Of a stretch of 64,000 nt of DNA, positions 1,237 to 30,911 are shown in pieces. Each line of letters opens with the position of its first letter. Position 1 is the stretch's first letter. A program made the position numbers and the translations under genes. Below the pieces are notes generated by a model. The model was not told the origin of the DNA. It saw nothing but the letters and a program-made list of their open reading frames with translations, and searched no databases. The stretch covers positions 5,828,001 through 5,892,000 of the forward strand of contig OZ005696.1 of the NCBI GenBank assembly GCA_963930775.1. The letters are read 5' to 3'. The DNA is from Cliona cf. orientalis. Its lineage: Eukaryota; Porifera; Demospongiae; Clionaida; Clionaidae.

Positions 1237-1515
1237 CTTCAACATAGGTATTCTTCACCTCCTCAGCCTGTTGATAAAGGAAACATCGCTGTAGAGCCTC
1301 GCTAATTTTTTTCCATGATGCGCAAGGATGATGGTGGGCATATGTATCCAGATAAGCCTCTTCTCGTTTAGCCCAACTCTGGTAGCTCTTCTTAATCTCC
1401 TCTAATGCAGATTTAGGTAGACCAAGCAGCTGTCCAATATCAATGCGAAAAATGCCACCTCGATCCTCTACTGATTGAAACAGCTTAGTGAGTCTATCAG
1501 TGGTAAGAGTGAGAT
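1237..1515 (-). CDS. Death-domain exon 12 (most canonical copy)
   Basis: This 93-codon exon is the closest in the array to a textbook death domain. It has an LLGLPKSALEEIKKSY stretch typical of helices 2-3, then YLDTYAHHHPCASWKKIS, matching the conserved helix-4/5 region ending in the invariant Trp, and a final QAEEVKNTY helix. The acceptor is TTTTTGCAG|ATCTC and the donor GAAG|GTATGC. It differs strongly from the recent copies and probably represents an old lineage in the array. It may not be the last exon, because the donor is intact and points off the left side. Confidence 0.72.
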
Positions 1516-2955
1516 CTGCAAAAACAAGTACCATGTTTATTCTAATAGAATGCAAGCTAAAAACATTATTATCTTAACTTTTGTGCGATATTCTGGTAAA
1601 TGTCTTTACAATCTACATTAAGATACATTGTGGAAGTCATAGAACGCAAATTCTCTTGCATTCATAAGATATTGCGTTCTGTTAGCACAAACACGGTAAA
1701 CAGTGAATCACACTGTTCATTGATGAATACATAGTCACAACATTATAATTATTATACAAGCTCTCAAAGTGTCAGCAAATTTTGTGGTCACCAAATTTGA
1801 ATTAATACTTCATGTACACAGCAGATCCAGGAAACTAAAGGAGCTTGGTCACCACCCTAGGCCCCAAAGTTAACAATAGATACTTGGCTATAGACAACTA
1901 GATTAGGCTCCCCTTAAGACAAGAAAGCTTCACTTGCCAGCCTCGTTCATGTGCAGCAATGATGTATTTCAATGAAAGGGATGGGGTCACTAACCCTCAG
2001 TGCAAGCACAAGGGTTATGGTAGTTGTTCTGTCTGTCTGTCTATCTATTACCATGCTAGCTGCTACATACCTAGCTATAGATCCAACAAGACGACTGGCT
2101 CATCACTGATCAGAGCACATCTAGTGACAGGCTGACTTGGCCAGCACAATAGTCATTGATACAGCCAAGGAGGCTACTGTGAGTGAAGCTGACTTGATGT
2201 AGGTACTGCCATGAGTGTGGAGTTCGATTCAACACACCAGGGTTGTTGTTGCTGTGAGCCATTGAACCTTAAACAACACTGCTGTGTTATAACATTAGTT
2301 TCACCCCCAGCCCTCATGCAGTCCTTTACCCTTTTCTACATGCAACATTGAAAGTGGGTAAAGGGAAGCTACTACATGTAACACTGTATTGCTGCTGCCT
2401 ACTTGTGCAGCTAATGCCATGCAAAGCGCTGAGGGTTTGTGCTCTAGAGAACTCTAGTTTTTTTCTATATGTGACTACTTAACTAAGCTCCAGATACAGA
2501 ATCTTCCACTAACTTGTACATGCACAAGATTTACATTAATTATCCACACATGTATGCAACGATAAAGCGATCAGTCTGTCTATGCATTATGACTGTGCAA
2601 GCTTGAACTCAATACATTGGTAAGGGACATGTGCGTATAAGTGCATGCACGAAACTACATGAATATAATATTATAGACATGCAAAATGTAAGCGAGTACG
2701 TACTCCGTCTAGAAAACTGTAGTTCTTATGCTAACCATTGCATGTGATTCACACCTAACTAACTAAGTTCTCAAAGCTTGGTACCCAAGTAGCTCTAGGT
2801 TCACATTTGACAGAGTAAGCACATGCATTAAATTTTAAAGGAAAGATAGACTTATTGAGCCTTCACATATCAATAACTTTTCGTTGATGATCTGATAAAT
2901 GTCAGACCATATCCCAATTTGATCGGACATTACCAATAGTTGGTCAGATATTATA

Positions 2956-3500
2956 TACTGTGCCCTCGCGAAAGAGGGCCCACTACGGAATATCGGCCCA
3001 CCCCCCACTTTGGGCTCAATTTCCTGCTAAGGTCTAATGTTTACTCGAATATGCGCCCATGTGTAGCTACCCTTGAAAACGCAGCTAAAATGGCTGGTTT
3101 ATGAGGACTGAACTTCGAATAGTCTATGTGAGATCGATAAGTAACCTGCCAAACGGCCATAAAACTAGCATTATACCACGTTTCAGCACAAAACGAATGA
3201 TCGCGCACAGCTAGCGATTGTAATCACACCCACTTAATACGAGAGCCGTCAACAACATACGGTGAAGTATCGGCCCGATAGCCGGTCGCCCTCACTCTTG
3301 ATTGGTAATCGTGCTTGAATAAGGCTGAAATCAATGGTAGCCGCTGCTACCATTCGAATTATGAACATAGCATGGGCAACTTACCTGGGTGCTCTTTCGC
3401 GTCTAAATGCGATACTGATACCTCGAATATCGGCCCACCCCCCTTCTTGGCCCAGCGTAAGGTGCACCACCCATGGGCCCTCTTTCACGAGGGTACAGTA
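2956..3500. mobile_element. 545-bp non-autonomous DNA element, copy 1
   Basis: The ends are inverted repeats. Left end 2956-2982 reads TACTGTGCCCTCGCGAAAGA and on. Right end 3474-3500 is its near-perfect complement. Each terminus also contains its own small hairpin (CCCTCGCGAAAGAGGG). No coding capacity. The same element, 544 bp long, lies at 20244-20787 in the opposite orientation. Confidence 0.75.
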
Positions 3501-5448
3501 AATCTATGCGTACTACAGATTGCAAGGGAAGGCAGCAGCCATGGCTTACTTGCACACAAACACAGCAGCTATACATGTACCGTATTTATTCGAATAGAGA
3601 TAATAGCCACACGCATGCGTGAACACAATTAAGTAGATGTGGCTACGATCGCAAGCCATGAATGATCGGTAGTTTGAGGCAAAACCATGGCAGAAAATGC
3701 CCTTGGCTTGGTTCTGCTGCTTATTAATTGATCATCTATCTCAAACTTTCGAAATTCAATCCTGAAAATTGAGTCTATTGTGTTTATCACCAAGAGGTGT
3801 CATTCCCAAATTAATAAAAGCCGCCCTCGAATAAGAGCCACCTTCGATTAGTAGTCACACTCCAGCAAGGCTGAAATTAATAGTAGTTGCGGCTAGTATA
3901 CACAGTTTTGTTCAGCTGCAGAGGTCACTGAGAAGTGCAGTTACCACAAACCACAGCATAAGAGCAGTGACAGTTGTAAGCTAAGTGGGTGCTAAATAAA
4001 CTACTACTACTAACATCCCCCAGCTACTGACCACTCACCATTAGAACGCATGTGCATTGCAAACTATACTGGCAAGCGATGGTAAGGCAGCCTAATGTCC
4101 GAACAGGAGCAGTTTGGGCGGCCTTGGAACCATGTTGGTTGGATTTTAGCCAATGACCAATCACACTGATGTATTCATAAAATTAATGCACATTGTACAA
4201 AAAGTATTTTTGTATTACATGACTGTAAAACATGCACCTTTGCATTACAGAAATGGAATAACTTACGCCAATGCAGTAAAGGTCACCATATTATTGTAAT
4301 AATTACACTATATACAACGAAAAATATTTTTCAGAGTGACAATTTTCTTATATTATAATAGTCCGTGTCATTACATGAGGGCATGGATACGCGTCTTGGA
4401 TGCGCCCGGTTGCTATGAACGCACGGCACGAGCGGAGAGGAAGTCCGCACTACAAGGCTCAGGATTGGTCAGAACTGTAGGGCTGTTTGCACAAAGAAGA
4501 ATGCCTCGGGCCATAGCTACGGCTAAAGACGCATTGTCGAACGATCGGCGGGAAAGCGCCGTGCGTTCGAAAAGCCAGCTAAGCAGGCGCTGGCGCTAGC
4601 CACCGAGCCTCGAGCGAAGCAAGAGGCGAGGTCTGTTCTTGGTCATACCTGTCAGTAGTCCGGTAGCAACATTAGAGCAGAGCGAGAACGTCACCATTGC
4701 AAACTTTGGAGCTGCTTGCTATGAAGGGTGTGGCCTCTGCAACCGCTTCCATCTGCGCATGCGCACGGTACTAATGGGCAATCTTGCCCAAGCAGGATAC
4801 TGTTTGTGCATGAACTACGTCTCTATGTTTTGTGAGCATGTACTGTTAAGTAGAGCAGCTATAGAAGCTACTTGCACTAAATTTCTGGCTCTAGCTATAC
4901 TGCCACGAGTCGGCTGTTGGTAGCAAATGGATCAATACATGCACTGATCGAGCTAACTATATTATTATGTTTGATGGAACATGACTATGTTCCACCTCTG
5001 AGTCAGACTCAGTAATTTACAGTTAGCTCATTCGTCTAGCCAAAACAGGGTATTTGCAAGGGACACTATATATGGGGCATGGCAATAATTTTTACCCGCA
5101 GGTCAAGGGGATCACTATTAGTATTCTGCGTGTGTACTAGCTACACATAATATTTTATAACTAATGACATGCATGGCCTGTTTGGGGCGAGCCTGAGCTG
5201 AGAAAGGCTCTGTCGAACTGGACTGTAGAGACTCAGTATTAAAAGCCGTAGATCGTCACGGAAGACCATGGACAATGAATCCAAGTACGACAGTCATAGT
5301 TGCTGTGTAGCTACCTACCTGATAGTCCTCTCCACTTAGTGGTTTTTGTATGCCAACGTTGCAACAGTGGCAAATTATAGCTACGTTTTAATAGTCTGGC
5401 GATAGCTGCCAGCTCACGATTGTACAGCTCAGTGAGCACGTCTATCCT

Positions 5449-5494
5449 TAGCCTCGTCCCCAGGCCCTCCTCAAAGGGCCTGGGGACGAGGCTA
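5449..5494. mobile_element. 46-bp foldback relic of the TAGCCTCG element family
   Basis: A near-perfect palindrome, TAGCCTCGTCCCCAGGCCC then a short loop and its complement. It is flanked by the 9-bp direct repeat GTCTATCCT (5440-5448 and 5495-5503). It is the two termini of the family seen at 28056-28494 and 32557-32907 with almost all internal sequence missing. The 9-bp duplication shows that it inserted as a unit. Confidence 0.8.
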
Positions 5495-5961
5495 GTCTAT
5501 CCTAGGCCTTCCTTAATAGCCGCTCCTCGTGCGGTTGAGCTGAAGACGACTTATGTCTCCCTCTAGCATTCTCTGCAGCCTTATTTGTCTCTGGTTCAGC
5601 GTTCATGGCATGCTGCACGAGTATAAATCTGCAATTCGCTAAAATTTAATTAGAACAGCGTACATACGGCCTATGGGCTAAGGAATGAGAACGCGCAATA
5701 GAATATTTCGCGCTTATGTCCATAGAGCCATGCTGGGCATATATTTCGCGTGACCGACGTACCATAATATAAAATTCGCGCATAGCTGTACCATTTATGT
5801 GGGGCTCGCTCAGGCTCGCCCCAATAATATCTTACTCTTGTATATATTTACTAGAATAAAAATTCACCAGTGAGAGCAGGTGACGAAATTTATCTATACA
5901 GTAATATCTCTATCAGATTTGACCACCAACAAGCATTACTGAAAATCAACAATAGACTTAC

Positions 5962-6270
5962 CTCTAGGAGGCAGGAATGTCCTTGCCTGCTCTACGGCAG
6001 TCACCTCATCTTCTTTGTACAGCTGTGAGGTGAGGTGTTCCCAGGAAGACTCAGGATGACAGTTGATATACATATCACTACAGGCACGTGTCTTCTCTCT
6101 TTCACTGGAATGGCTACTGTAAATCTCATCAAGGTATATGTACACTCTGGTCGCTTGTTCAAAGCCATAATGATCTTTTATCTCGAGCACAGTCTCCCAC
6201 ACTTGTCTCCTCCTATCCTCTGTGACCTTCTCCATCACATCAGCCACATTCTCCACTGTTAACGTAGGGT
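5962..6270 (-). CDS. Death-domain exon 11
   Basis: This is a 103-codon exon. It keeps the family start DPTLTVENVADVMEKVT and the SSWEHLTSQLY Trp motif, but its middle (EIKDHYGFEQATRVYIYLDE) has diverged. The acceptor is CATGTAG|ACCCT and the donor is AGAG|GTAAGTC, the best donor match of the array. It is intermediate between exon 12 and the nine similar exons. Confidence 0.72.
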
Positions 6271-6945
6271 CTACATGACATGTAGGAAGGTTAAAAATAA
6301 GAAGTTGTTAAAATTCCAACCCGCCAAAGCTTCCATCCACTCCTATCAACTTTAGCTGTGTGTTAGATTCATTAACACTCCCAGTTGAGGCATTCTATAG
6401 ATGATCAAAACTGATGTGGGCTTATTATTATTCGCATAATATTGTAAGGCTGATTCAAAACTTGCTACTGATTGCAAACTACATGTACACGTTTATATGC
6501 TTGCATTTACAAAACATAATGATTGGTAGTGTGTCTCTATGGCTACCATCATTTGTACACACGGCACTATAATTCCGACCAATTATGTGCCTTTTCAACT
6601 TGTGGTAAAGAGAATCTTTCATGCCCTCAGGGAGGACATGACTACATAAGAAAAACATCACTCTGAAAATATTTTCATTGAACATAGTATAACATGATGC
6701 TGTCTATTAAAATAGTATACTGAAGCACTGTTTATGAGGGCTACAGTCCAAATACTCGAGATATCAAAAAACATCTGTATCACTGTAGAACCGTACCAAG
6801 GCTGTTTGTGCTAATATTATGCTTCTGCCTAAATGAGCACTCATTTGTCCATTTGGAATTGTGGCCACATTCTATTTAAAGGATGCCACCAATTGGAGGC
6901 AATTTTTTGAAGTAGCTTGATCACACAACAATTATAGTAACCCAC

Positions 6946-7248
6946 CATTTTGTTGAAGGAATGGCTTTGCTTCCTTTACTGCTGCCATTTTACTCTCAGC
7001 ATACAAGATTTGGATAAGATGCTGCCATGAAGATCCAGGTCTGCTGTTGACATAGATATCAGCTAAGACATGTGTCTTCTCTTCAGCTGTTGAGTATTTT
7101 AGGTAGACTTCGTCAAGATAAGAGGATAATGAAGTAAAGTACCCATAGCCCGACTTCAACACCCTCTCCCACACCTCCCTTCTCCTTCCCTCATCTGATG
7201 TCACTTTCTCCATTACTCCAACTAAACTCTCCACTGTCAGAGTGGGAT
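6946..7248 (-). CDS. Death-domain exon 10
   Basis: A 101-codon member of the similar group: DPTLTVESLVGVMEKVT, then YLDEVYLKYSTAEEKTH, then SSWQHLIQILY. It carries a short insertion (KSGYGYFTSLSSY) between helices and ends QQN before the G|GTGGGT donor. It is separated from exon 9 by more than 9 kb of intron that holds the BEL/Pao element and the GGGCGTG-rich element. Confidence 0.72.
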
Positions 7249-7332
7249 CTGAAAACATACTAGATTATTGCATCATCACTACTACAGGAAAAGCACTTGT
7301 AATGTACACATGTACATGTACATAATATAGCT

Positions 7333-8355: not shown

Positions 8356-8439
8356 ATAATATTGTCACACACTATGACACCAAGTTACTCTTGATGACAT
8401 GTACAATGTAAATAAGAAGGTAGGCAAACACCTGAACTT

Positions 8440-8700
8440 ATTTGTTAACCCTCGGTGAATGCGCCGTAGGGTATAGTAATTGCTTTGTCTGTGTGTCCGT
8501 CTATCTATTACTACGAATTCTGCTACATGCCTATACCTCTTTTCACATCAAAAGGAAGGTGTCATAGCATATTTATGTTGTTTTCAAGGTTTTTGTCGTG
8601 TGGCTTTTGCCAAGAGTATATAAAGGAGCAGGGGAGAGAGTATAGACCCATATATATGCTGCGTGTAATAGCTGTTCGTACAGTTTATGACCTTTATAAT
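8440..8700 (+). repeat. Partial copy of the array-unit repeat
   Basis: It begins with the shared 'taaccctcggtgaatgcgcc' then 'gtagggtatag', a (TCTG)n stretch, and 'cctatacctcttttcaca'. Other copies are at about 20800-21230, 22150-22620, 23870-24270, 25925-26320 and 28500-28795. These copies accompany the death-domain exons and run antiparallel to them. Confidence 0.6.
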
Positions 8701-8732
8701 GCTATTCATGTTTGGTGGGCACCCTGGAATGT

Positions 8733-8931
8733 CGCGGCGTGGATGTGGATGCCACTAACGCTTGCTGCACTGGCTTCCTGCAGGCGCAATATCAACATGT
8801 GCTATTAGCTATCACAATCAGTGATGGCGTCCAGTCCGAGACATTCACTAAGGCTACGCTTGCTACGGGATCTTTTGTCGTCCAGTTCGAGTGAGACACC
8901 CCAGCTAAGAAGATCTCCTAGAGGTGCTGAG
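8733..8931 (+). repeat. Truncated copy of the MASSPRHS open segment
   Basis: Nearly identical to 16843-16970 and following sequence and to 18573 onward, but homology stops abruptly at 'cctagagg' (8931). In the other copies the segment continues as an open frame. From 8932 to 9608 the sequence is unrelated to them and I recognise no gene or element in it. Confidence 0.6.
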
Positions 8932-9608
8932 AGCCTACTCCATTACTCAGGTCTTCACTTGTACCGTCTCTTGCAGCTGATCGAGTACTTTCTCTGTCAA
9001 CCATAGCTTTTATGATGCCAGATGACATAGGAGACTGGTTGTGAAAGCCTTAACAACCTTCAGCAAACCTTTAAGAAGGCATTTGGTAGCTAGAAATCTT
9101 TGTATCACCTAGATAGTGCTGTGTTATCATTGGTTTGTACGTATTCATTCAATATTTGTATTGTGAAAATTAATATCAATTTTTGTACTGTTTTTAACAG
9201 CGTGTAACTCTGGAACCGCTCGATGGAAAAACTTCGTTCCAGTCTCATATTGTAGAGCAACACAAGAGCTATTGAATGGTACTTGAATCATGGGAATCCA
9301 TCCTAAGGAACCAAAACGTACCACTTTTTGCGCGAGGCACTTTTGTGAGCGCTTGCAAACAGCATGCACAAAAGCGATCGCCGCGGAGCTCATGAATGTC
9401 TCCGGGTTATGGGACTTGAGCGAGCTGAAAGTAGAAGAGTTGCTCTGTCTTCTGGTCTTTGTTTGGAGTCCTAGAAGTGAAAGATGGCCTAGATAGAACA
9501 GGTAAGAAAAATAGATAAGAAACGGCAAAAATTGCATGCACTGGAATGTGCCACCGGATGTACTTCCTGGATCTGCAACAATTGGACCGCTGGCTTAACG
9601 GCTGCTCA

Positions 9609-9816
9609 TGGTAATGTAGATAGCAAAATGAACAGCACATGCTTATACAGCCAGCAAAGGAGCCCTAGCAGCACATAGAAAGAAAATGCTGTAACAGGTG
9701 AACAGGAGAACCAGACAAATCAGCTATACACAAATTAATTAGAACACACACAAACATGAGACCAGCTATTCAATGCAAATGAACAACAATAAACAGTCAA
9801 GAGACGAGTCCAAACA
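9609..9816 (-). repeat. 3' LTR of the BEL/Pao element
   Basis: A 208-bp direct repeat of 15621-15828, beginning TG and ending CA, with four mismatches between the copies. Internally it is preceded (minus strand) by a GGCCGGCGGTATA stretch, a plausible polypurine-like priming site. The outer flank (GCTCA) does not match the flank of the other LTR (CCACC), so no target duplication is visible. Confidence 0.85.
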
Positions 9817-9857
9817 TATACCGCCGGCCAAGACCAATGGTCTTTGTACAATAGGTA

Positions 9858-12800
9858 CTATTCATCAGAAGGTAGCAGTAGCGCAAGCTTTGTAACTGGA
9901 CGAGTACGGATACCAGAGCTCACTGTAGCAACACGAACTAGATTGTCCTTGCCGGGATACACCTCAATGACTCTACCCAAGGGCCATTTAGTTGGCAGAG
10001 CAGAATCTTCACGCAGAATCACCATATCACCAACACGAATATTTCTTGTAGGGCAACACCATTTAGTAACACGCCCTAAGTGGGTAACATACTCACTAGA
10101 CCATCGTTTCCAGAAATGGCGAACCAAGGACTGGCACAATTGCCAGCGTTTAAGCAATGAGAGGGAATTTGCATATACAAAGGATGAATCCGGAAGGGCT
10201 TCAAGGGGTCGCCCAATAAGAAAATGTCCTGGGGTCAGAGCTCCGATTCCATCATCGTCAGCAGGTAGTGGTACGAGGGGGCGGCTGTTAAGACAAGCTT
10301 CAACCTGCACAAGTACTGTAGAAAGCTCTTCATAAGTGAACCTAACACAGCCGAGCACACGTCTCATATGGGTCTTCATGCTTTTGACTGCAGCTTCCCA
10401 CAGACCACCAAAATGAGGTGCATGTTGTGGGATGAACCTCCACTCGATACTTTGGCCTGAAAGAAAGTTAGAAATGGCACCTTGAGTCTCCTGTTCTCTT
10501 AAGAACTGGAAAAGCTCTTTGATTTCTCGAGCAGCTCCGACAAAGTTGGTCCCATGATCGCTCCACACAAGAGTAGGTCTGCCTCGACGAGCAATGAACC
10601 TACGTAGACAAGCAATAAACGCTTCAGAAGTAAGGTCAGAAACGAGTTCCAAGTGCACTGCCTTCACGGTGAGAGAAACGAAGACACAAACGTAGGCTTT
10701 GATAATGGTAGGTCGTCGCACATGTCCACGCTTGATCAGAACGGGACCAGCATAATCTATACCAACTTTATCAAACACAGGACCAGGTGTGATCCGTTCA
10801 ATGGGTAGTTGTCCCATCATTTGAGGTTGAGGTCTGGCTGAATTGCGACGACAAGTGATGCATGCCCTGGTGACTGAACGAACGATTCTCCTTCCACCAA
10901 TAATGTGATACCGACAAGCAAGAGACGCAGCAAGCAGTGTAGGACCAGCATGTAATAGCCGAACATGCTCAGTACGAATGATCAATCTTGTCAAGGGATG
11001 CTTGCCATGAAGGATGATCGGATGTTGTGATTCATAGGAGGACTTTGAAAGCTGCTGCCTACCACCAACCCGAAGCAAACCAAAGGAATCAATTAAGGGA
11101 CTTAGAGACAGGAGCGGGCTGGATGATTCTAACGAGCTTCGTTCTCTCAGTGCTTGCATTTCTTCTTCAAAATGGGAGCGTTGAATACGTCGCAACCAGT
11201 AACGTTCAGCCTTGTGGAGCTCTCCAACCGAGAGAGAGGAATCAGGTCGAATCTGAGCATTTTGCTTTCGACAATTTTCCACAAAACGGAATATCCAGGC
11301 CGTGACACGTTTCAGTCTAGTAAAGCTGGAATAGCGACCAAAGAGAGTGATTGAGACTTGTGAGATCTCCACGTGCAAGGATACCTCTCTCTCTTCTTCA
11401 ACTGAATCATTTGGTGGGAGTGACAACTGGGTCGGCCAATTGGTAGGCGACTGCTGGAGCCAAGCCGGTCCTTTCCACCAAAGAGTGTGTTGTAGGAGCT
11501 CGGCTGGAAAGAGGCCTCTTGAGGCACAATCGGCAGGATTGTCAACCCCACTCACGTGATGCCATCTGTCCGGAGGGAGAAACTCCATAATTGTGGAAAT
11601 TCGATTCCCCACATATGTTTTAAACCGCTTGGGACTTCCATCAAGCCAATTAAGGACAATGGTACTGTCAGTCCATGCGTACGTTTGAGAGATAGGGACG
11701 TCGAGCACCTTCCCGACATGATGGAGAAGCTGTGCCAAGAGAGAGGCTCCGCACAATTCAAGGCGGGGAATGGTGAGCCGTTTAATGGGAGAGACTTTCG
11801 TCTTTGCAATCACCAATGAAACTTGAGTACCCATAGTGGTAGTGAGGCGAAGATATACAACAGCAGCATAAGCAAGTTCTGAGGCATCGCAGAAACCATG
11901 TAGCTCTGTCGTGACTACACGGGACTCTCTGTCAAAATAGCAACGCGGAATATGCTTTTCAGAGAGGAGATGAAGCTCAGAACGCCACTGAAGCCATACG
12001 TCATAGATTGAGGATGGTACAGGATCATCCCAACCGATTCCTTTTTCCCAAACTTGCTGCAGCAATATCTTGGCTTTGATAGTGGAAGGGGAAAACCATC
12101 CAAACACATCATACATCTTAGCAATATCGGACACCAAAGCACGTTTAGTGAGGTTATCATCAATGAGCGGTGTCGATTTAGCAATAGTCAACCGAAAGTG
12201 ATCCATGCTGGCATTCCATTCAATACCCAGTATCCTTGAATATTCTCCAGATTGAGGCAACATTTGATTCGATTGACTATCTTTCAAGTCAGGAGGGAGA
12301 TGTTTCAGAACATTTGTTTCACTCGAGTTCCATTTGCGCAGAAGGAAACCTCCTCGCAAGAACAGTGACTGCAATTGTTTTTGCAACTCGATAGCTTCCT
12401 GCTCCGAGTCAGCTCCAATAAGACCATCATCCACATAGAAAGATTCTGCAACTATCTTGGCAGCTCGAGGATATTCGATGGCTAAATCAAGTGCGTTTTG
12501 TTGCACAGCCATGTTGGCAGCAAAAGATGAAGCTGACACGCCAAAAGTGACGCGGGTCATTCGATAGTCAACCAATGTGTCGGTAACACTCTTTCTCTAT
12601 ACAAAACGGTGGAGATCACGGTCAGACATTGCAAGATTCACAGCTCGATACATTTTACTAACATCAGTGGTCAGAGCCACACGGTGTAATCTGAATTTCA
12701 ACAGCACATCCAGGAGAGAAGAGTGAACAGTTGGTCCTACAAGGAGCGTATCATTCAGAGGTGTACCAGTGCTCGACTTGGCAGAAGCATCAAAAACAGC

Positions 12801-15371
12801 TCGAATCTTGGTTGTAGTACTCTGCTCCTTCCTGACAGCATGCATGGGCAAGTAAAATACTTCTCTGGATGGCCTTTGCAAGTCGGCAACAGGAACAACC
12901 TCTGCATGCCCCAAGTCAAGATATTCCTCTATAACAGTAGAGAACTCTTGAAATTGATTTCTTGCATGCAAGGAACGTTCTAGAGATAGGAATCTCCTGA
13001 CAGCTTGAGACCTCGACTCGCCAATAGACTTTGCTCGAGGATTCTTAGGTAATGGCACAATAAAACTTCCATTTTCAGCACGAGTGTGATTTTCTTTGAA
13101 ATGTTGCACGACGGTACGTTCTTCAGGAGAGAGATCAGAACTGCTCTTGGGACTTTCCTCCAATTCCCAGAACTTGCGAAGAAGTTCGTCTCTAGAGGCA
13201 ACAAGCTGAGAGTGAAAAGATGCAACACCATGATGAGACGATACACGCATATTGGAGGTGCTTCCAGCCAAAACCCAACCAAATCTGGTTTCAAAGGCAG
13301 CTGGAGAGCCAGAAGGTCCACTCCGCCGGCCGTGCAACAATGTTTCAGCATAGACATCTACTCCCAGAAGGATGTCTATCTTTCCAGGATGACCAAAGTC
13401 AGGATCAGCCAGCTGTAAGCTGGAAAGGTGTGTCCACTTTGAATCAAAAGGAACTGGTTGGAGAGGCAGGTCACAAGTAACACGTGGAACCACAACAGCA
13501 GTGACTTGAAGCTTCTCAGTAGGCGAGGAAATAGCCGAGATACTGAATGTGGTGACCGAGTGAAGAGGGGATTGATGTGACAGTCCAGCTATGCCCGAGA
13601 TGCTAACTGTCCTTGAGGATCGAGGCAAACAGATGGATTGAGCCAAGCGCTCAGATACAAATGTAGTGGATGACGCAGAATCAAGAAGACCACGTGCTTT
13701 CACATTTGATCCATCAGGGGCATGCACAAGGAGTTGACACGTCATTAGAAGAGCATTAGATGCCAAACCAGTGGCTGCATTACTTGAAATGGAGGGTTGA
13801 ACGGAGGGTTGAACAGCAACAGGCGTAGATTGCTCATGCTGAGAACTCCCTCTAGCATCAATGTGGATGAGGGTGTGGTGTGGCTTCTGGCACTTCCTGC
13901 ATCGGTTGTTGCTGCCACACTGTTTGGAGAAATGACCAGGCTTGAGACAGTTCATACACAGATCGTTGTCTCGGATCATTGACACCATCTTGTCTCGAGG
14001 TAGCACCTTGAAACGAGGACAAGCATATAAAGGGTGCTTTTCTGGCTTGCACAGGATGCAACCAAGAACAGATTCAGAGGTGCTTGCAGCAAAGGATGCG
14101 ACTGGCTTGTTAGACTGAGACTTTTTGTTAGGATGTGCATCACCGCGTGGTGTCCTCTTGGTGTCGGAAGTACAAGTCTCGCAAGCTTGAGCACGTAGAT
14201 TCAAGAATTCTAGCAACTCATCGTAGTGTGGTACATCAGTGGATTTCTGACTGAATTTCTGCCACTCAAACATCGTGCTTTGATCCAATTTCAACTCTAT
14301 CATGGAGGTAATAAATGATCCCGATGGCTCATGATCCATGGACTTGAGAGCCCGGAGATGCTGCTGAAGCACATCGTGAAGACGACGCAGCTCCTTCCCA
14401 TTACCATCTTTCAAAGGGGGAACTTCACAGATCTTGCGTACATGTGTCTGATGGATCAGACGAGGACGATTATATCTCGACTCCAGACATTTCACAGCTT
14501 CAGCATAATGTTCGCCTGAGCGGGATAAACCCTCAATGGCACTCTTTGCGGATCCGTCTTTCAGGGAATGCTGCAAGTACACAAGCTTTTGGGTGTCAGA
14601 GATATCACAACGACCATGAATTGCCACACAAAACTGCTCCCAGAATGATCACCAATGGAGAATATCACCATCAAATGTGGGAACCTCAAGCTTAGGAAGC
14701 CTGACACCTTTCACCTCAGGAGTTAAAACTGCTTCAGGTGTGCATTTTGGATTGTATAGCCACTTGTTGACCTTCAGGGACATGTCGAATATGCTCTTAT
14801 CAAGCATTGTGATTGTCGTGTGCAGCTCTTCTGACACATCTCGAGTACACTGAGCAGTGACCTCATGACGAATGTGTCCCAACTCCTGTTTAAAATCTGA
14901 TAGCTGCTCCTGATACGCATGAATTAAATGAGCTTCCTTGGGATCACCAGAGAGAGAGTCGATTGCAGAGTTGGTCGAACAAAGCCTCGTCTTCAACTGC
15001 GACAAACGGCTAACTGCAATACTCCGGGTCCCAGATTCAGATGCTGATGAACACATTTGCAGCAAGTACTCAATGCGAGACGCGAGAGAGGCCACCTCAT
15101 CATCGTGAGCATCAAGTATCTCCTGCTCCTTAGTTAACCCCTCCTCGTCACCTTCTGCTATCGCATCGATTACTGCAAGATGGTGAGCTTTGAAGTCGGA
15201 GTCAAGTGTATCCAATTTCATCGACATCCGCTGGGCAAGGCTTGGTGTGGTTGGTGCATCAACTTTAGATTCAAGCTCACTGAGTCGAGTAGCAAGGCGG
15301 GTGACAGAGGCACGTACGACGCCTCTCCTTCTTCTGAGAGTAGCGAGTGAGGGTGCTTCGGTAGCATTCAT
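9858..15371 (-). pseudogene. BEL/Pao gag-pol frame with two premature stops
   Basis: The frame is continuous over 1,838 codons except for the two stops. From the 5' end: a coiled-coil-rich gag segment (15371-14649); gag with two Cys/His knuckles (about 13875-13958, CMNCLKPGHFSKQC then CRKCQKPHH); a protease-like region (GLLDSASSTTFVSERLA); reverse transcriptase with the YVDD active site at 12426-12437; RNase H (GFCDASE, WTDST); and integrase with a His/Cys zinc-binding region followed by D (about 10757), D (about 10559) and E (about 10397). It ends with the usual short beta-rich C-terminal domain. Both stops lie in otherwise well-conserved stretches, so they read as point inactivations and not as programmed recoding. 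No frameshift was seen. Confidence 0.88.
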
Positions 15372-15620
15372 CGTCGGCAGGCGACCTTGAAGATTGAAGA
15401 GGAAATGGACGTCCTATAGAATCCTTGAAAGAACCATTCAAACAATTACCAGTTAGTCAATTATCCGGCTCGAAGGACCCAAAATATGATGAGTTCTTTC
15501 CTAGGAACGCACCTCTGTAACTCCCTGAACCTTGAGAAGCATGCATCTACATGCTGGCTGCGCCGTATGTACTATGCATGGTTCAGCAACTCGCTTGAAT
15601 AGTTTGCAGTCAACTTCTCA

Positions 15621-15828
15621 TGGTAATGTAGATAGCAAAATGAACAGCACATGCTTATATAGCCAGCAAAGGAGCCCTAGCGGCACATAGAAAGAAAATG
15701 CTGTAACAGGTGAACAGGAGAACCAGACAAATCAGCTATACACAAATTAATTAGAACACACACAAACATGAGACCAGCTATTCAATGCAAATGAACAACA
15801 ATAAACAGTCAAGAGACAAATCCAAACA
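15621..15828 (-). repeat. 5' LTR of the BEL/Pao element
   Basis: Same 208-bp length as the 3' LTR, with TG...CA ends. The sequence immediately right of it (15829 onward, 'ccacccaagtattcggag') is the tail of the MASSPRHS segment, found uninterrupted at about 17173 and 18904. The element therefore landed next to or within a copy of that unit. Confidence 0.85.
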
Positions 15829-16402: not shown

Positions 16403-16699
16403 CAATTTGTTGTTGAATGAATGACTTTGCTTTCTTTGCTGCTGCCATTTCACTCTCACCATACAAGATTTGGACAAGATGCTGCCATGAAGATCCAGGT
16501 CTGCTGTTGACATAGACATCAGCTAAGGCATGTGTCTTCTCTTCAGCAGTTGAGTATTTCAGGTAGACTTCATCAAGATAAGAGGATGGAGTAACATAGT
16601 TCCACCCCAACACCCCATCCCACATCTTCCTTCTCCTTCCCTCATCTAATGTCACTTTCTCCATTACTCCAACTAAACTCTCCACTGTCAGAGTGGGAT
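16403..16699 (-). CDS. Death-domain exon 9
   Basis: A 99-codon exon that differs from exons 7 and 8 at only a few residues (TLDEGRRRKMWDGVLGWNY; AAAKKAKSFIQQQI). It keeps SSYLDEVYLKYSTAEEKTH and SSWQHLVQILYGESE. Acceptor TTTTCAG|ATCCC and donor ATTG|GTGGGT are unchanged from the other copies. Confidence 0.75.
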
Positions 16700-18132: not shown

Positions 18133-18429
18133 CAATTTGTTGTTGAATGAATGACTTTGCTTTCTTTGCTGCTGCCATTTCACTCTCACCATACAAGATT
18201 TGGACAAGATGCTGCCATGAAGATCCAGGTCTGCTGTTGACATAGACATCAGCTAAGGCATGTGTCTTCTCTTCAGCAGTTGAGTATTTCAGGTAGACTT
18301 CATCAAGATAAGAGGATGGAGTAACATAGTTCCACCCCAACACCCCATCCCACACCTTCCTTCTCCTTCCCTCATCTGATGTCACTTTCTCCATTACTCC
18401 AACTAAACTCTCCACTGTCAGAGTGGGAT
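18133..18429 (-). CDS. Death-domain exon 8
   Basis: A 99-codon exon nearly identical to exon 9. Visible differences include VTSDEGRRRKVWDG in place of VTLDEGRRRKMWDG. Both splice sites are intact. Its intron also holds a frame-broken copy of the MASSPRHS segment. Confidence 0.75.
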
Positions 18430-19450: not shown

Positions 19451-19747
19451 CAATTTGTTGTTGAATGAATGACTTTGCTTCCTTTGCTGCTGCCATTTCA
19501 CTCTCACCATACAAGATTTGGACAAGATGCTGCCATGAAGATCCAGGTCTGCTGTTGACATAGACATCAGCTAAGGCATATGTCTTCTCTTCAGCAGTTG
19601 AGTATTTTAGGTAGACTTCATCAAGATAAGAGGATGGAGTAACATAGTCCCACCCCAATACCCCATCCCACACCTTCCTTCTCCTTCCCTCATCTGATGT
19701 CACTTTCTCCATTACTCCAACTAAACTCTCCATTGTCAGAGTGGGAT
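19451..19747 (-). CDS. Death-domain exon 7
   Basis: A 99-codon exon of the near-identical trio: MESLVGVMEKVT at the start, WDGVLGWDYV, EEKTYALADVY, SSWQHLVQILYGESE, ending QQQI and G|GTGGGT. It is followed, in plus coordinates, by a complete GGCGTAGCC-type element at 19819-20170; units A and B have only its end. Confidence 0.75.
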
Positions 19748-21677: not shown

Positions 21678-21986
21678 CAACTGGTTGTTGAAGGAATGGC
21701 TTTGCTTCCTTCGCTGCCGCTATTTCACTCTCATTATACAAAATTTTGACAAGATGCTGCCATGAAGATTCAGGTCTGCTGTTGACATAGACATCAGCTA
21801 AGGCATGTGTCTTCTCTTCAGCAGTTGAGTATTTTAGGTAGACTTCGTCAAGATAAGAGGATGGAGTATATCCCACAAACCCATAGTTCCGCCTCAACAT
21901 CCTCTCCCACACCTCCCTTCTCCTTCCCTTGTCTGATGTTACTTTCTCCATTACTCCAACTAAACTCTCCACTGTCAGAGTGGGAT
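21678..21986 (-). CDS. Death-domain exon 6
   Basis: A 103-codon exon with a four-residue expansion (RRNYGFVGYTPSSYLDE) compared with exons 7-9, and SSWQHLVKILYNESEIAAAK. Donor GTTG|GTGGGT, acceptor TTTTCAG|ATCCC. It belongs to an older unit that also carries the plus-strand repeat at 22150-22620. Confidence 0.73.
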
Positions 21987-23411: not shown

Positions 23412-23708
23412 CAACTGGTTGTTGAATGAATGACTTTGCTTCCTTTGCTGCTGCCATTTCACTCTCAACATACAATGTTCGGACAAGATACTGCCATGAA
23501 GAGTCAGATCTGCTGTTGATATAGACATCAGCTAAGGTATGTGTCTTCTCTTCAGCCGTTGAGTATTTTAGGTAGACTTCATCAAGATAAGAAGATGGAG
23601 TAACATGGTTCCACCTCAACACCCTCTCCCACACCTTCCTTCTCCTTCCCTCATATGATGTCACTTTCTCCATTACTCCAACTACACTCTCCACTGTCAG
23701 AGTGGGAT
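23412..23708 (-). CDS. Death-domain exon 5
   Basis: A 99-codon exon: VESVVGVMEKVTSYEG, VLRWNHVTPSSYLDE, SSWQYLVRTLYVESE. The acceptor is TTTTTAG (not TTTTCAG) and the donor GTTG|GTGGGT. It shares SRSDSSW with exons 3 and 4, which groups the three. Confidence 0.73.
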
Positions 23709-23773
23709 CTAAAAACATGTAGATTATATCATCACTACTATGGCGAAAGCATTTGTATTGAATCATGTATAAA

Positions 23774-24890
23774 ATTATGTAGTGTGTCACACAGTACGAC
23801 ATAAAGATACTCTTAATGATATGTAAATAAGATGACATGCACAAAATTGAATATACATGTACATGTATTTTATTAACCCTCGGTGTATGAATCGTAGGGT
23901 ATAGCAATTGTTCTGTCTGTCTATTACCACGAAATCTGCTGCCTACCTCGTTTTACATTGAAAGGAAGGTGTCATAGTGTTTTTTATTGTGTTTCAAGGT
24001 TTTTGTCGTATGGATTGTTTTGTTCAAGAGTTCTGGTGTCATCAGGTTTGCTGGTCACTGCCACCTTCCTTGCTCCCTGGCAAGCTTTCGATGGATAAAG
24101 AGGCTTCATTTCAACTCGAAGGGTATGTACATATGCACAGTTAGCAATAGATCTACCAAGACGACTGGTTCATCACTGATCGTAGCACACTGGCAGATAA
24201 GCTTCTTGGCCTTCTGAATATGCTACAAACTGCTGACATGACACTGCTATATGACACATGATGACCCCTTCCGAGGAATGAGGCTATACTAATATTATTA
24301 TACATGTACATTTATATGATAGCGTTTTAATTAAAAGAAGGGGCCTGGAATGTCCTTACTAAGAACAAATTCCCCCTTCCCCCACCCAAAAATAACGCCA
24401 ACGGAAGTGCCATCAATAACTGCAGACTTCCAACATTGACTCTAATCTTTGGGTCTAGAGTGTGTTGAAGAGGTCTACTTTGGGAGGGGAGGACATAAAC
24501 ATCCCCTGACTCAAGAGACATTAGTGCTTTAGCATAACACTGACATGTAACCCCCCCCAACTGACAGATACATGTACATGTAAATATGTTCACAGTTTAA
24601 CACATAACCCACCAATTGGTTGTTGAATGAATGACTTTGCTTCCTTTGCTGCTGCCATTTCACTCTCACCATACAAGATTTTGACAAGATGCTGCCATGA
24701 AGAGTCAGATCTGCTGTTGATATAAACATCAGCTAAGGCATGTGTCTTCTCTTCAGCTGTTGGGTAGACTTTATCAAGATAAGAGGATGGAGTAACATAG
24801 TCCAACCCTAACACCCTCTCCCACACCTCCCTTCTCCTTCCCTCGTCTGATGTCACTTTCTCCATTACTCCAACTACACTCTCCACTGTC
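23774..24890. repeat. About 1.1-kb segmental duplicate, left copy
   Basis: Matches 25827-26943 at a constant offset of 2,053 bp with very few substitutions. It includes the array-unit repeat head, the CYAKALMSLESGD segment and most of death-domain exon 4. Between the copies, 24965-25826 is unrelated sequence bounded on the left by 'ctagagctctctcgagcaca' and on the right by an inverted repeat head. Confidence 0.8.
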
Positions 24891-24900
24891 AGAGTGGGAT
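24613..24900 (-). CDS. Death-domain exon 4
   Basis: A 96-codon exon with the same three-codon deletion as exon 3 (YLDKVYPTAEEK in place of YLDEVYLKYSTAEEK). The two differ only near the N-terminus (VESVVGV here). The acceptor is TTTTTAG as in exon 5, so the right edge of this exon resembles exon 5 while its body resembles exon 3. That pattern fits unequal exchange or gene conversion. Confidence 0.73.
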
Positions 24901-25826
24901 CTAAAAACATGTAGATTATATCATCACTACTATGGCGAAAGCATTTGTATTGAATCATGTATAAAACTAGAGCTCTCTCGAGCACAAAACCCTCGGCGCG
25001 TTGCAAGGCATTAGCTAGCTAGGGCTGGGGATCCGGACAAGGCTAATGTTATGCAGCATTGTTCAAGATTCAATAGTTCTCAGCAATTAATGACAATCCT
25101 GGTATGTTGTATCGAGCACCACATGTACACATACTGTGGTGCCGGCTATTGCATGTCCAATATTATTATCATTGCAAGTTGCTCATATTATATTATGGGT
25201 CCAAGCGCTGCATGCATCGTACATGTACATGTACAAGCTTAGCTAGCCAGACTATCATACAAAAGTCAGTGTGGTTGCAAGCTATCCAGCCTTAATAGTC
25301 TGGGTGAAGGGGCTGGCAACTAGACTACATTAATTTTATACTAGTTCAGCCTATGCATGTTAGCAGCAGTGAGTGTAACCACTCCACGGCCACAAGAATG
25401 CACACAATTACGTAATATGCATGCACGTGTGCGTATATGCCTGATCAGCAGTTTTGTTACACACAAAGAAAGTACAAGCCAAGAAGCGTTGTTGATAGTC
25501 TACCGTGATCAGTGATGACTCAGTCAAGTTATAAGAACTATCGCTACTCCTACACACTAGTCTTCTTGAAAAGAAGTCATCGTTGTCTCCTTTGTCTATT
25601 ATGAGCTGGTCAAGAAGCTAAGAAGGCCGTGGTGGTCAGCAAATGTCGCCAGAACTTCTGAACAAAGCGTTTTCAACGAAATCCACACAATGCATACGTT
25701 GAAATCAGCATAGAAAGCCTAATGATACCTGATTTTCAACGTACAAATGAGGTATGTAGCAGCTAGCTCGATTACAGACAGACAGACACACAGAACGACT
25801 ACCGTAACCCTACGGCGCATGGGTTA

Positions 25827-26943
25827 ATTATGTAGTGTGTCACACAGTACGACATAAAGATACTCTTAATGATATGTAAATAAGATGACATGCACAAAAT
25901 TGAATATACATGTACATGTATTTTATTAACCCTCGGTGTATGAATCGTAGGGTATAGCAATTGTTCTGTCTGTCTATTACCACGAAATCTGCTGCCTACC
26001 TCGTTTTACATTGAAAGGAAGGTGTCATAGTGTTTTTTATTGTGTTTCAAGGTTTTTGTCGTATGGATTGTTTTGTTCAAGAGTTCTGGTGTCATCAGGT
26101 TTGCTGGTCACTGCCACCTTCCTTGCTCCCTGGCAAGCTTTCGATGGATAAAGAGGCTTCATTTCAACTCGAAGGGTATGTACATATGCACAGTTAGCAA
26201 TAGATCTACCAAGACGACTGGTTCATCACTGATCGTAGCACACTGGCAGATAAGCTTCTTGGCCTTCTGAATATGCTACAAACTGCTGACATGACACTGC
26301 TATATGACACATGATGACCCCTTCCGAGGAATGAGGCTATACTAATATTATTATACATGTACATTTATATGATAGTGTTTTAATTAAAAGAAGGGGCCTG
26401 GAATGTCCTTACTAAGAACAAATTCCCCCTTCCCCCACCCAAAAATAACGCCAACGGAAGTGCCATCAATAACTGCAGGCTTCCAACATTGACTCTAATC
26501 TTTGGGTCTACAGCATGTTGAAGAGGTCTACTTTGGGAGGGGAAGACATAAGCACCCCCTGACTCAAGGGACATTAGTGCTTTAGTATAACACTGACATG
26601 TAACCCCCCCCCCCCCCCCCCCCCAACTGACAGATACATGTACATGTAAATATGTTCACAGTTTAACACATAACCCACCAATTGGTTGTTGAATGAATGA
26701 CTTTGCTTCCTTTGCTGCTGCCATTTCACTCTCACCATACAAGATTTTGACAAGATGCTGCCATGAAGAGTCAGATCTGCTGTTGATATAAACATCAGCT
26801 AAGGCATGTGTCTTCTCTTCAGCTGTTGGGTAGACTTTATCAAGATAAGAGGATGGAGTAACATAGTCCAACCCTAACACCCTCTCCCACACCTCCCTTC
26901 TCCTTCCCTCGTCTGATGTCACTTTCTCCATTACTCCAACTAA
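25827..26943. repeat. About 1.1-kb segmental duplicate, right copy
   Basis: Second copy of 23774-24890. Differences include a longer poly-C run (about 26605-26623) and scattered single-base changes. Homology fades inside the 5' part of death-domain exon 3. Confidence 0.8.
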
Positions 26944-26966
26944 ACTCTCCACTGTCAGAGTGGGAT
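26679..26966 (-). CDS. Death-domain exon 3
   Basis: A 96-codon exon identical in its body to exon 4 but with VESLVGVMEKVT and a TTTTCAG acceptor like the rest of the array. The deleted middle (DKVYPTAEEK) removes part of a predicted helix, so this pair may fold differently. Confidence 0.73.
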
Positions 26967-27569
26967 CTGAAAACGTACATTATTACATCATCACTACTAT
27001 GGGGAAAGCATTTGCATTGAACACATGCATAAAATTTAATTATATAGTTCGTAAGCAACTTATAGTAATAATATAGAACATGCAATACTGCTCACTACAA
27101 TTGGGCCGAGGGTTTTGCACTATACAGCTGTATATATAGTGCTTCATTGCATTTGCACTGATGACCTCAAACTATCCCTTCCGAGGAATGAGGCTATAAT
27201 ATATGTATACGTTTACATGATAATGTTTTAGTTAAAAGAAGGTGCCCTGGAATGTCCTTATTGTGCCCTGCTTCCAATGTTCACTGTAATATTTGGATTT
27301 AAAGTGTGTTGAAGAGGTCTACTTTGGGAGGGGAGGACATTAATATCCCCTGACTCAAGAGACATAAGTGCTTTAGCATAACACTAATATGTGATCCCAC
27401 CCCCCCCCCTCCCCATAACAATAATCCTGTACAAAAATACAAAAGTTGATTTCCTTACAAACTGCAATGTCATGCTATTAATTCTTAAAGGACATGCAAC
27501 CATCTTCAACGCAACAATATGGAAACATAGATACATGTAAATATGTTCATAGGTTAACACATCACCCAC

Positions 27570-27872
27570 CAATTGGTTGTTGAAGGAATGGCTTTGCTTC
27601 TTTTGCTGCTGCCATTTCACTCTCAACATACAAGATTTCGACAAGATCCTGCCATGAAGATCCAGGTCTGCTGTTGACATAGACATCAGCTAAGACATGT
27701 GTCTTCTCTTTAGCCGTTGAGTATTTTAAGTAGACTTCGTCAAGATAAGAGGATAAAGTATCGTCCATGTAGCTCCACCCCAACACCCTCTCCCACACCT
27801 TCCTTCTCCTTCCCTCATATGATGTCACTTTCTCCATTACTCCAACTAACCTCTCCACTGTCAGAGTGGGAT
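27570..27872 (-). CDS. Death-domain exon 2
   Basis: A 101-codon exon: VERLVGVMEKVTSYEG, WERVLGWSYMDDTLSSYLDE, SSWQDLVEILYVESE, ending QQPI. Joined to exon 1 it would give an Asp at the junction. The acceptor is ATTTTCAG and the donor ATTG|GTGGGT. Confidence 0.73.
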
Positions 27873-28055
27873 CTGAAAATGTGATTATTACATTATCACT
27901 ACTATGGGGAAAGCATTTGTATTGAACACATGTATAAAATTTAATTATATAGTTTGTCACACAGTATGACATAAAGTTACTCTTAATGTAAGTAAGTTGG
28001 CATGCATTAAACTAAACATACAAGGTCATGTACATGTATTTATTAAACCTCAGTG

Positions 28056-28494
28056 CTAGCCTCGTCCCCAGGCCCTTTGAGGGGAGGAGGAGAAAGGGCC
28101 TGGTACACACCGTTTGCGCATGTGTCAACTTTTCCGTAAAAACGTCCGTAAAAGTTTACCCCTACCACGTGCTGATAAGTAAAACGATCCATATGTCTAC
28201 AAAATATGGAATGACCTCCTGACCTTCACACTAGCGCTCGTACTAAACGCGCGCCTACTCTGACTGGAGTAGAGGCAGTCCTTCGTTGATCGATATGGCG
28301 AAGTCCCTTGAGCTTCCTCGAAGTCTCGCTCGAAACTCGAACCGTTGTAAGCTTGCCAAAGAAGTTAAGGTCAAAGGGCAAGTATACTAGGAAATATCCG
28401 ATCCCCTAAGATTCTTAGGGTAACTGAGCATGCGCAAACAGTGTGTACCAGGCCCTTTCTCCTCCTCCCCTCAAAGGGCCTGGGGACGAGGCTA
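28056..28494. mobile_element. 439-bp element of the TAGCCTCG family (9-bp target duplication)
   Basis: Long inverted termini starting CTAGCCTCGTCCCCAGGCCC and extending more than 60 bp inward with small gaps. Flanked by ACCTCAGTG on both sides (28047-28055, 28495-28503). Long inverted ends plus a 9-bp duplication are characteristic of Mutator-like elements. No transposase is encoded. Confidence 0.85.
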
Positions 28495-29002
28495 ACCTCA
28501 GTGCATGCGCTGTAGGGTATAGCAATTGCTCTTTCTGTGTGTCTGTCTGTCTATTATCACAAAATCTGCTGCCTATACCTCTTTTTACATTGAAAGTAAG
28601 GTGTAATAGGGTTTTTTATCCTGTTTTCAAGGTTATTGTCATGTGACTTTTGCTGAAAATGCTTCATTCAAGAGTTCTGATATCATCAAGTTTGCTGGTC
28701 ATTGCCGCCTTCCTTGCTCCCTGACAAGCTTTCAATAGACAAAGATGCTTCTTTTCAACTCGAAGGGTATGTATGGTTAACTACATATAGATCTCGAAAT
28801 CTGGCAATTTTCATGCTGACGACAGATAGAGAGATAAAACCAATTGCTTTACCCCTTGCTATGCATGTGCGTGTGGGCTAAAAACTGTTGTACCATAATT
28901 ACAAATTCTGACCAATCAGACTTCTCCAAAATAAATCACTTATCAAACCTTGTATTGATGTACAAGGTCTGATAACTACATATACCTCAGGGCACACTAG
29001 TA

Positions 29003-29404
29003 TAGTCCAACCAAGATTATACGAACTCTCGATTATCCGAACTCGAGATGCAAAGAAAATGCAGGATCTAAGTACACATTGTGACCACGTGACCGGATTG
29101 TGCATGCGCAGTAAACCTATGTCGCGTAGTTGCCACGCGAGAACCAGCTGCTGCGCTGCTATTAAATCTAGTTTTAATACTCAAAGAAGTAAAAGAACGC
29201 AAGGTAAGCGTTCTATCAATCGAGGATGGGTTTAAATTGCTAAAATGCTCGATAAATCTGTTATAATATAATACGTTTTTGCATGCATGATCGATCTGGT
29301 GGGTGTGGCTTGGGCATGGTCAACGTTATCCGAACTTCTTGCTTATCCGAACGGTTCTAAATTTCCCCTTGGCCAAAGGGGTTCGGATAATCGAGGTTGG
29401 ACTG
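29003..29404. mobile_element. Pogo-like TA-flanked element
   Basis: The left end TAGTCCAACC and right end GGTTGGACTG are inverted, with 'tcgattatccgaac' just inside both. TA lies at each edge. Non-coding, about 400 bp. The CCTCGATTATCCGAA-type end is typical of pogo/Tigger-related miniature elements. Confidence 0.75.
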
Positions 29405-30001
29405 TAGAACTGTACTGCTACTACGCAATTGCATTGTGATAGTACTATGCGTATGTACTATGGTGATGAAGGTTAATTGCCATAAGTGGGCGGAGTAATT
29501 GGATGCTGAGTCAGCAGATCTTGGAGCTCAAGCAGCTGTGGAGGAAGATACTGGCTAGGAAGGCACATTTTGTGAAGTTTAGTACTGCACTGGCTAACAA
29601 GAAATCCATCACTGTGAAAGTTCGAAGCATCTTAGCCTTCTTGAAGGCCTGGCCATGAGCGAGCTGACAGTAGTAGGTGATTAAATACTAGACGGCTTTC
29701 ACGGTCATGACAATTCGAAACTTTTGTTTTGCTGTGTTGCTGGGTGCTGTTTGAGCCGACTTTTATAGCCAGCACTGTCGTTGCTTCCATGAGGATGCAT
29801 CATCAGGGCCATGTAGCCTATGGTACAAGTCCGTTATATACATGTACCTTGGTGTGGTCTCTACGCAATTCACAGAGCCTCGGGCCTTCGGCCCTCGGCT
29901 GTGTAAATAGCATGGAGACCTACACCTCGGTATATAAACCAATCATATGCTGTCAGTGCACCCCACTATCCCCCCCCCCCCAACAAGAGCAGGTAGTGAT
30001 A

Positions 30002-30401
30002 TACCGTATTGCCTTTAATTTAATGGACATCTCTAATTATCCGGACACCATTTTGAATTTCTTTTTACCTCCAATTACGCCGGACAGTCAATGAAGTTTG
30101 AATTTTTGTTGTTCTAATTATCCGAACATCGTTGTTCTAACAGCTGCTTCTTTGGTGGTACTGAAGGAGGCGAGTTGTTCTCTTTCCTACCATGAACAGA
30201 GAGCTCCAGGTACCGTCTCATTTTCTCAATCTCTGCAGCTGCTCGATCACACGTCCATTTGACCGAATGCGCATGCGTGAAAGCGTGTTCTAATTCATCG
30301 GACACTTTGAATGCCAACTATTTTCATGTACTCTAATTATAGCAGACATTGGCCAAAATAATTATTTTTCTGGTGTCCGTTAAATTAGAGGTGATACGGT
30401 A
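30002..30401. mobile_element. Second TA-flanked miniature element
   Basis: Inverted ends TACCGTATTGCCTTTAATTT and, at the right, its imperfect complement ending 'gtgatacggta'. Internal 'ctaattatccgaaca' repeats suggest a pogo-related family. The open frame at 30114-30317 lies entirely inside it and is not credited as a gene. Confidence 0.6.
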
Positions 30402-30635
30402 ATTGATATTTTCTCCAGGTAAAAATTTAGGCTACTCAGCATACTGTAGTTAGGCTAAAACTACACATTCTAGATGTAATCGAAATTCATTGAGTGATCA
30501 GGTACTAGGTACATGTCTCACTGGCCTATATAGGGTCAATACTGTGTACAAATTTGACCACTTTCTCCTCGATACATGTACATGTAAATATGGCCTGTAA
30601 AGCTTGTTGATCATAATATACATGTATCAGTATAC

Positions 30636-30911
30636 CTTGCAGTGGTTCAGCATAGCTCCTGATTTGTTGTGCCTTGTCAATCTCATTTGCACAATAAAGA
30701 GCCCAAATCACCTTCCTCCATGATAAATCCTCCCATGACTTCTCCACCACTGCTCTGAGCCGGGCCTCATCAGATTCATACTCCTCAAAAATTCTGTCCA
30801 GATTGATTAGTAAAGAAAAAGCGTGCAACATTCCATTAAGCACTTCACCCAGCTTCCTCCAGTTGACTCCAGCCACTGCTTTCAGTACCTCTTCCACTGA
30901 GAGAGGTGGGG
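30636..30911 (-). CDS. Death-domain exon 1 (5'-most seen)
   Basis: A 92-codon exon reading PPLSVEEVLKAVAG, then NWRKLGEVL (classic death-domain helix 1-2 with its Trp), LINLDRIFEEYESDEARLR, SWRKVIWALYCANE and a final helix QIRSYAEPLQ. The acceptor is CTTTGTAG|CCCCA and the donor CAAG|GTATACT. It starts in phase 1, so at least one more upstream exon must exist. I found no convincing one before the DDX19 gene. Confidence 0.7.

Follow-up and report, generated by a model that had tools for sequence, protein, structure and literature searches.

The subject of this report is a tandem array of twelve exons (E1–E12) on the minus strand of a 64,000-base window, C8:5828001-5892000, in the 216.8 Mb genome of the sponge Cliona cf. 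orientalis (C8 being contig OZ005696.1), each of which is predicted to encode one Death-fold domain. A protein normally has one or two Death domains, which form helical oligomers when they signal. Comparison with related loci indicates that the array is the middle of a longer gene, not a whole gene, and we describe with high confidence the architecture of that putative gene as a short leader, a chain of Death-fold domains, a ROCO-like GTPase and a C-terminal Death domain. The best overall explanation that we can offer joins this architecture to a working mechanism, and we consider it, as a whole, rather probable; the mechanism of Death chain and GTPase switch, taken by itself, we put slightly on the doubtful side of even. 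The gene model and its splice joins derive from sequence comparison alone. Positions prefixed C8 refer to the whole contig, all others to the window.

Architecture of the gene and its family

The first-pass annotation had described twelve open, phase-1 exons with good splice borders, yielding about 1,180 residues of head-to-tail Death-like domains with no other domain between them. An exon-by-exon re-check bears out the first part of this description: all twelve exons are open, are multiples of three (276–309 bases), have phase 1 at both ends and are bordered by AG and GT (Table 1), and E1–E12 spliced together give 1180 residues without a stop. A predicted fold and profile links support the reading of the exons as Death-like domains. 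Only E2–E10 form a close family, the others of these nine being 79–83% identical to E6; E11 (49% identity to E6), E12 (25%) and E1 (21%) are each divergent and each single in the window gene. The absence of other domains likewise holds between the array exons but not beyond them, as the gene appears to run on into an exon for a ROCO-like GTPase and to close with a Death domain.

The start exon has an identical position, peptide and donor in a paralogous array to the left of the window. At the other end of the gene, the last exon clears the curated Pfam Death profile (PF00531) with 31.2 bits against a gathering cut-off of 22.6 (E 2.5e-7). The resulting 15-exon model is 5958 bases and 1985 residues long, is open from ATG to stop, and has phase 1 at 14 of 14 introns. 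Because the start exon is conserved, the phase uniform, the layout of the paralogue the same and the order of exons maintained genome-wide, we read the exons as chained in one gene, as the first-pass annotation had proposed. Further small exons may separate the last Death exon from the ROCO-like exon; when the two paralogues were compared by tblastn beyond the ROCO-like exon, the stretch proved to be a recent duplication that aligns in many frames.

Table 1. Exons of the predicted array gene and the Death exons of its neighbouring paralogue.
Feature	Position	Strand	Description
Exon 0 (start exon)	32074..32101	-	28 bases, ATG, MADDQAISK, phase-1 donor AAAG/GTCAGT; frame joins E1
E1	30636..30911	-	276 nt, phase 1-1; divergent Death-fold exon, first of the array; 107 genome matches
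E2	27570..27872	-	core Death-fold exon
E3	26679..26966	-	core Death-fold exon; 99.7% identity to E4
E4	24613..24900	-	core Death-fold exon
E5	23412..23708	-	core Death-fold exon
E6	21678..21986	-	core Death-fold exon; structure modelled
E7	19451..19747	-	core Death-fold exon
E8	18133..18429	-	core Death-fold exon; 99.3% identity to E9
E9	16403..16699	-	core Death-fold exon
E10	6946..7248	-	core Death-fold exon
E11	5962..6270	-	divergent core-type exon; counterpart in neighbouring paralogous array
E12	1237..1515	-	last array exon, nearest of array to Pfam Death; structure modelled
ROCO-like GTPase exon	C8:5822931-5825006		downstream of E12, left of window; 2076 bases, phase 1-1, 691 whole codons
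Last exon	C8:5819688-5819998		downstream of ROCO-like exon, left of window; Death domain, then stop codon
Paralogue Death exons	C8:5755197-5755532 and C8:5756809-5757120		left of window

The paralogue, ~24–56 kb left of the window, holds seven core-type exons (six cores and an E11) and keeps the order of the window gene: E1, six cores, E11, E12, ROCO exon, Death exon. Across the genome, core matches were scored for 150 of 377 candidates, and core-based counts are lower bounds. Ordering the matches to E1 (107 used), the core (150), E12 (124 of 150) and the last Death exon (59 of 150) gave 169 chains, at least 66 of which run E1, core or cores, E12, with 13 more having E1 and E12 and no core scored between them; in at least 25 chains there is more than one core, and one of these chains, on C5, may combine two separate genes. 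The chaining rule itself favours order, and the fair test is therefore how often one exon type is the neighbour of another, on the same strand and no more than 8 kb away, set against 500 label shuffles. E1 is followed by a core 68 times (shuffle mean 24, maximum 35), a core by E12 79 times (27, 42), E12 by a Death exon 32 times (11, 22) and a core by another core 63 times (33, 49). Reverse neighbours are few (core to E1 2, E12 to core 1, Death to core 3), E1 is followed by E12 12 times, and direct steps from core to Death or from E1 to Death number 0. With ten core-type exons, E11 included, the window gene is the longest chain found and thus the largest member found in a multigene family. A further array, C8:7643501-7648000 in the 7.64–7.65 Mb region, has seven core exons at ~560-base spacing, with introns that look alike, and appears to have expanded in tandem more recently than the window array.

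Relatives from other assemblies were sought in the protein database, which has 280 for E6 (120 listed), 68 for E12 and 630 for the ROCO-like exon (120 listed); these were grouped by contig, equal-sized contigs being taken as one. Among the matches listed, a 864,704-base contig carries 22 core, 4 E12 and 3 ROCO proteins and a 168,693-base contig carries 10, 2 and 3, respectively. The core proteins of the larger contig are 70–77% identical to E6; because these identities fall where the sponge's own genome shows no core match at 60%–75% (150 scored of 377 candidates), the related arrays probably belong to another species. A JGI relative of the ROCO-like exon (P0191, named 'GTPase SAR1 family protein') and a relative of E12 (P0131) lie on contigs of the same length, 11,989 bases.

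Expansion of the array and its proposed working

Exon sequence is far better kept than its surroundings: over the 36 pairs of the nine window cores, mean identity is 92% in the exon versus 56% and 59% in the 200-base intron flanks, and exon identity exceeds both flanks in 35 of the 36. The upstream introns of E8 and E9 are 100% identical over the 200 bases compared, and E3/E4 and E8/E9 are, as judged by sequence identity, very recent duplicates; copy number has changed by tandem duplication. Ratios of nonsynonymous to synonymous rates (dN/dS) between the neighbouring paralogues, one pair each, are 0.16 for the ROCO-like exon (691 codons, dS 0.168), 0.44 for E12, 0.58 for E11 and 0.68 for E1; the ROCO-like exon is conserved and the Death array evolves faster.

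Variation among the cores is concentrated. By a loose pattern, on which these counts rest, the H2-H3 loop takes 86 different sequences in 93 readable of 101 core rows (nine of them from the window), with a length of 2–16 residues; the other most variable point in the 101 rows falls between helices 5 and 6, at residue 84. A test for diversifying selection in the variable loop on 15 cores gave no support. Relative to the framework, the loop is raised both in synonymous differences (pS 0.33 vs 0.09) and in nonsynonymous ones (pN 0.26 vs 0.07), and part of the loop excess may stem from alignment or recombination. The uncorrected pN/pS is 0.76 in framework columns (bootstrap over columns 0.48–1.27) and 0.80 in the loop (0.43–1.29).

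In the mechanism that we propose, the N-terminal Death-fold chain would act as a polyvalent docking or nucleation module, whose copies, varying mostly in the H2-H3 loop and around residue 84, would set the Death-fold partners and the strength of binding. As a conserved switch, the ROCO-like GTPase would release or cluster this chain, while the C-terminal Death domain would be the output through which a cell death or immunity signal is passed on. Any subset of array exons stays in frame because every intron is in phase 1, and unequal crossing-over and exon skipping would alter valence without damage.

The chain might instead be a bank of alternative exons, with splicing picking one or a few cores for each transcript, so that the protein would, like other members of the family, usually have just a few Death domains and the array would supply variants and not valence. 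The symmetric phase 1 of all exons suits such a bank, 14 of the 25 multi-core chains have three core exons (lower bounds), and brown algal ROCO genes splice tandem LRR exons alternatively (PMC11378527). The near-identical pairs E3/E4 and E8/E9, on the other hand, would add little variety to a bank, and we regard it as an unlikely account of the array, if one to be taken seriously.

Somewhat less likely still is a relaxed expansion, in which unequal crossing-over adds in-phase cores that are tolerated without added function. The overall pN/pS of the 15 cores, 0.76 uncorrected with an interval that includes 1, is what such relaxation might give, as are the near-identical recent duplicates and the nine versus six cores of the neighbouring paralogues. 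Against it, the tree of the same 15 cores (nine from the window, six from the neighbouring array) has 0 stops where ~12 would be expected without selection, by rough estimate, and each of the seven gap placements has a length divisible by three; the openness of the core exons is more than chance. Multi-copy arrays recur, moreover, in at least 25 chains and on contigs that probably come from a different species.

Were the polyvalent chain as we propose, up to thirteen Death domains would lie in cis and the protein would be partly pre-assembled, so that the threshold for death or immune signalling could depend on valence instead of on clustering driven by a stimulus. One exon per domain and a single phase would make copy number evolvable, as they do in the brown algal LRR-ROCO genes, here on an output domain and not a ligand sensor. 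Such a protein would allow a test of how nucleation responds to the valence of Death domains; for Death-fold adaptors of the sponge Amphimedon, nucleation barriers have been measured (PMC13012725). A bolder extension, which we consider unlikely, is a repertoire system in which phase-locked Death exons with a hypervariable H2-H3 loop, expanded and reshuffled by unequal crossing-over and possibly by splicing and coupled to a conserved ROCO switch, give Death-fold specificities particular to an individual or a cell. Such a system could serve self/non-self recognition, or provide decoys for the Death-fold proteins of invaders.

Identity of the domains

The assignment of the array domains to the Death-fold superfamily is supported by a predicted six-helix bundle and by profile links. 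The structure-prediction check, carried out on two of the twelve exons, agrees with the first-pass call: AlphaFold models of E6 (six helices, predicted local distance difference test, pLDDT, 84.3; predicted template modelling score, pTM, 0.76) and E12 (pLDDT 80.8) are both bundles of six helices, for which Death domains of the FADD type are the nearest structures. A core profile built without E1, E11 and E12 ties E1, the core, E11 and E12 together, the link to E1 being weak (E 0.0023 among 4198 open reading frames); the E12 profile does not list E1. An hhalign comparison of the core and E12 families (probability 99.4) was set aside as partly circular, its alignment A2 including the window's E1, E11 and E12.

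Several results weigh against this assignment and would be expected if the domains were some other small helical bundle. The Pfam Death check gave 0 of 10 scanned array exons (all but E7 and E8) at the cut-off and nine without any Death match, the best, E12, being sub-threshold at 17.2 bits (E 0.0056). Other Pfam rows for the scanned array exons are weak (best E 0.017, DUF7529) and NCBIfam gave nothing useful. Sequence-profile searches of the PDB yielded nothing credible: with the core, no Death domain and chance-like rows; with the 12 exons, zero matches; with E12, three marginal rows, including a MAVS CARD at E 1.2. Foldseek E-values, too, fall short of significance. Yet by entry title the Death superfamily accounts for 50 of the 50 entries listed for E6 and 49 of 50 for E12, a sub-threshold Pfam Death match recurs in 4 of 10 relatives scanned as well as in E12, and the profiles join the divergent exons to the core, so that another bundle seems to us very improbable. 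Pfam Death membership as curated is missed by the scanned array exons and reached by the C-terminal exon. Least probable of all is that the twelve are separate small genes, for which nothing speaks directly beyond each exon being an open frame of ~100 codons, and against which stand an order and strand kept at dozens of loci, phase-1 borders at 12 of 12 exons and one conserved start exon.

The GTPase exon is called ROCO-like from its motifs. GTPase motifs expected of ROCO proteins are a P-loop, DxxG and THxD, and the exon contains GPGGSGKT, DSGGQ and GTHKD. In 25 sequences (the exon itself and 24 relatives chosen from the 120 listed of 630), G32, G34, G35, G37, K38, D190, G193, Q194 and G273-D277 are invariant. 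Of the same 25, Pfam finds COR-A (PF16095) at E <= 0.001 in 11, while 8 match Microtub_bd and 4 match Death. When six relatives were scanned singly, COR-A appeared in five of six at 18.9–27.4 bits, under its cut-off of 35.3. In three of the six a Death domain follows COR-A near the C-terminus, within a single open frame, and two of these three pass the Death cut-off.

Other searches bear on the ROCO label as well. The Pfam scan of the exon itself gave neither COR-A nor Death, and Roc only below threshold (E 0.059); a Roc search of the genome lists 149 matches, of which none falls at this exon; and PDB searches returned no ROCO structure, whether with the exon alone or with the 25-sequence profile, the top rows of the latter being kinesins (E 0.004). 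Microtub_bd matches the exon itself at E 0.00067 and is below its cut-off where scored singly. We take the kinesin and Microtub_bd matches as P-loop resemblance, but the P-loop may be motor-like.

The Death-domain content of the genome as a whole is very large. A first look at PF00531 gave 1292 candidates, and all 150 of the 150 scored are over the cut-off; some of the matches lie in open frames of 800–960 codons on C2, C3 and C18.

Known systems and neighbouring features

Among the papers listed from open-licence PubMed Central text, none deals, by title and start of abstract, with Death-domain exon arrays or with ROCO genes that carry Death arrays. Animal DAPK1 combines ROC, COR and Death, with a kinase and ankyrin repeats before them. 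It shares with the array gene a C-terminal Death domain after the ROC-COR part, and differs in that our gene model has a long N-terminal Death array and that Pfam lists neither kinase nor ankyrin in the scanned array or ROCO-like exons. An NB-ARC signalling NTPase with two Death domains likewise has more than one, but there is no exon array there and the NTPase is NB-ARC, not ROCO. As to the animal NOD-like receptors (NLR), Pfam gave neither NACHT nor LRR in the scanned array exons, the ROCO-like exon or the Death exon.

A close parallel is found in the brown algal LRR-ROC-COR (ROCO) genes, which undergo exon shuffling (PMC11378527). Both systems feature a ROCO gene, one repeat per exon, introns of a single phase, tandem duplication and a suggested immune role; the brown algal unit, however, is an LRR exon of 72 bp with phase 2, whereas here it is a ~290-bp Death-fold exon in phase 1, with a C-terminal Death domain. 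By analogy, the array gene would work like the brown algal LRR-ROCO genes without being one of them. The TRADD-N proteins of the NCOA6 clade in Amphimedon, with 1–3 N-terminal Death-like domains (PMC8195603), resemble it as a sponge lineage expansion with N-terminal Death-like copies before a variable part. They differ from the array gene in its 12 Death-like copies and in its E12, which joins a ROCO-like GTPase exon in phase, and Pfam lists no TRADD-N in the scanned exons.

In the neighbouring paralogue the C-terminal Death exon is broken by two TGA and one TAG; upstream of it lies a second Death exon, which is intact and more divergent (54%). Head-to-head with the window gene, at ~32.3–36.4 kb (+), stands a DEAD-box helicase gene that we take, by eye, to be DDX19-like; a second copy of its 5' part lies next to the paralogous array, at ~-21.6 to -20.3 kb, which suggests that both were copied in one segmental duplication. 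A nearby gene is presumably TLE/groucho, again recognised by eye, and these two genes fit an animal genome. Within the E9–E10 intron, on the same strand as the gene and outside its coding part, lies a long terminal repeat (LTR) retroelement of ~6 kb (9602..15828, minus strand), with three adjacent long open reading frames, by whose look we assume it to be BEL/Pao-like, and 215-base ends that are 98% alike.

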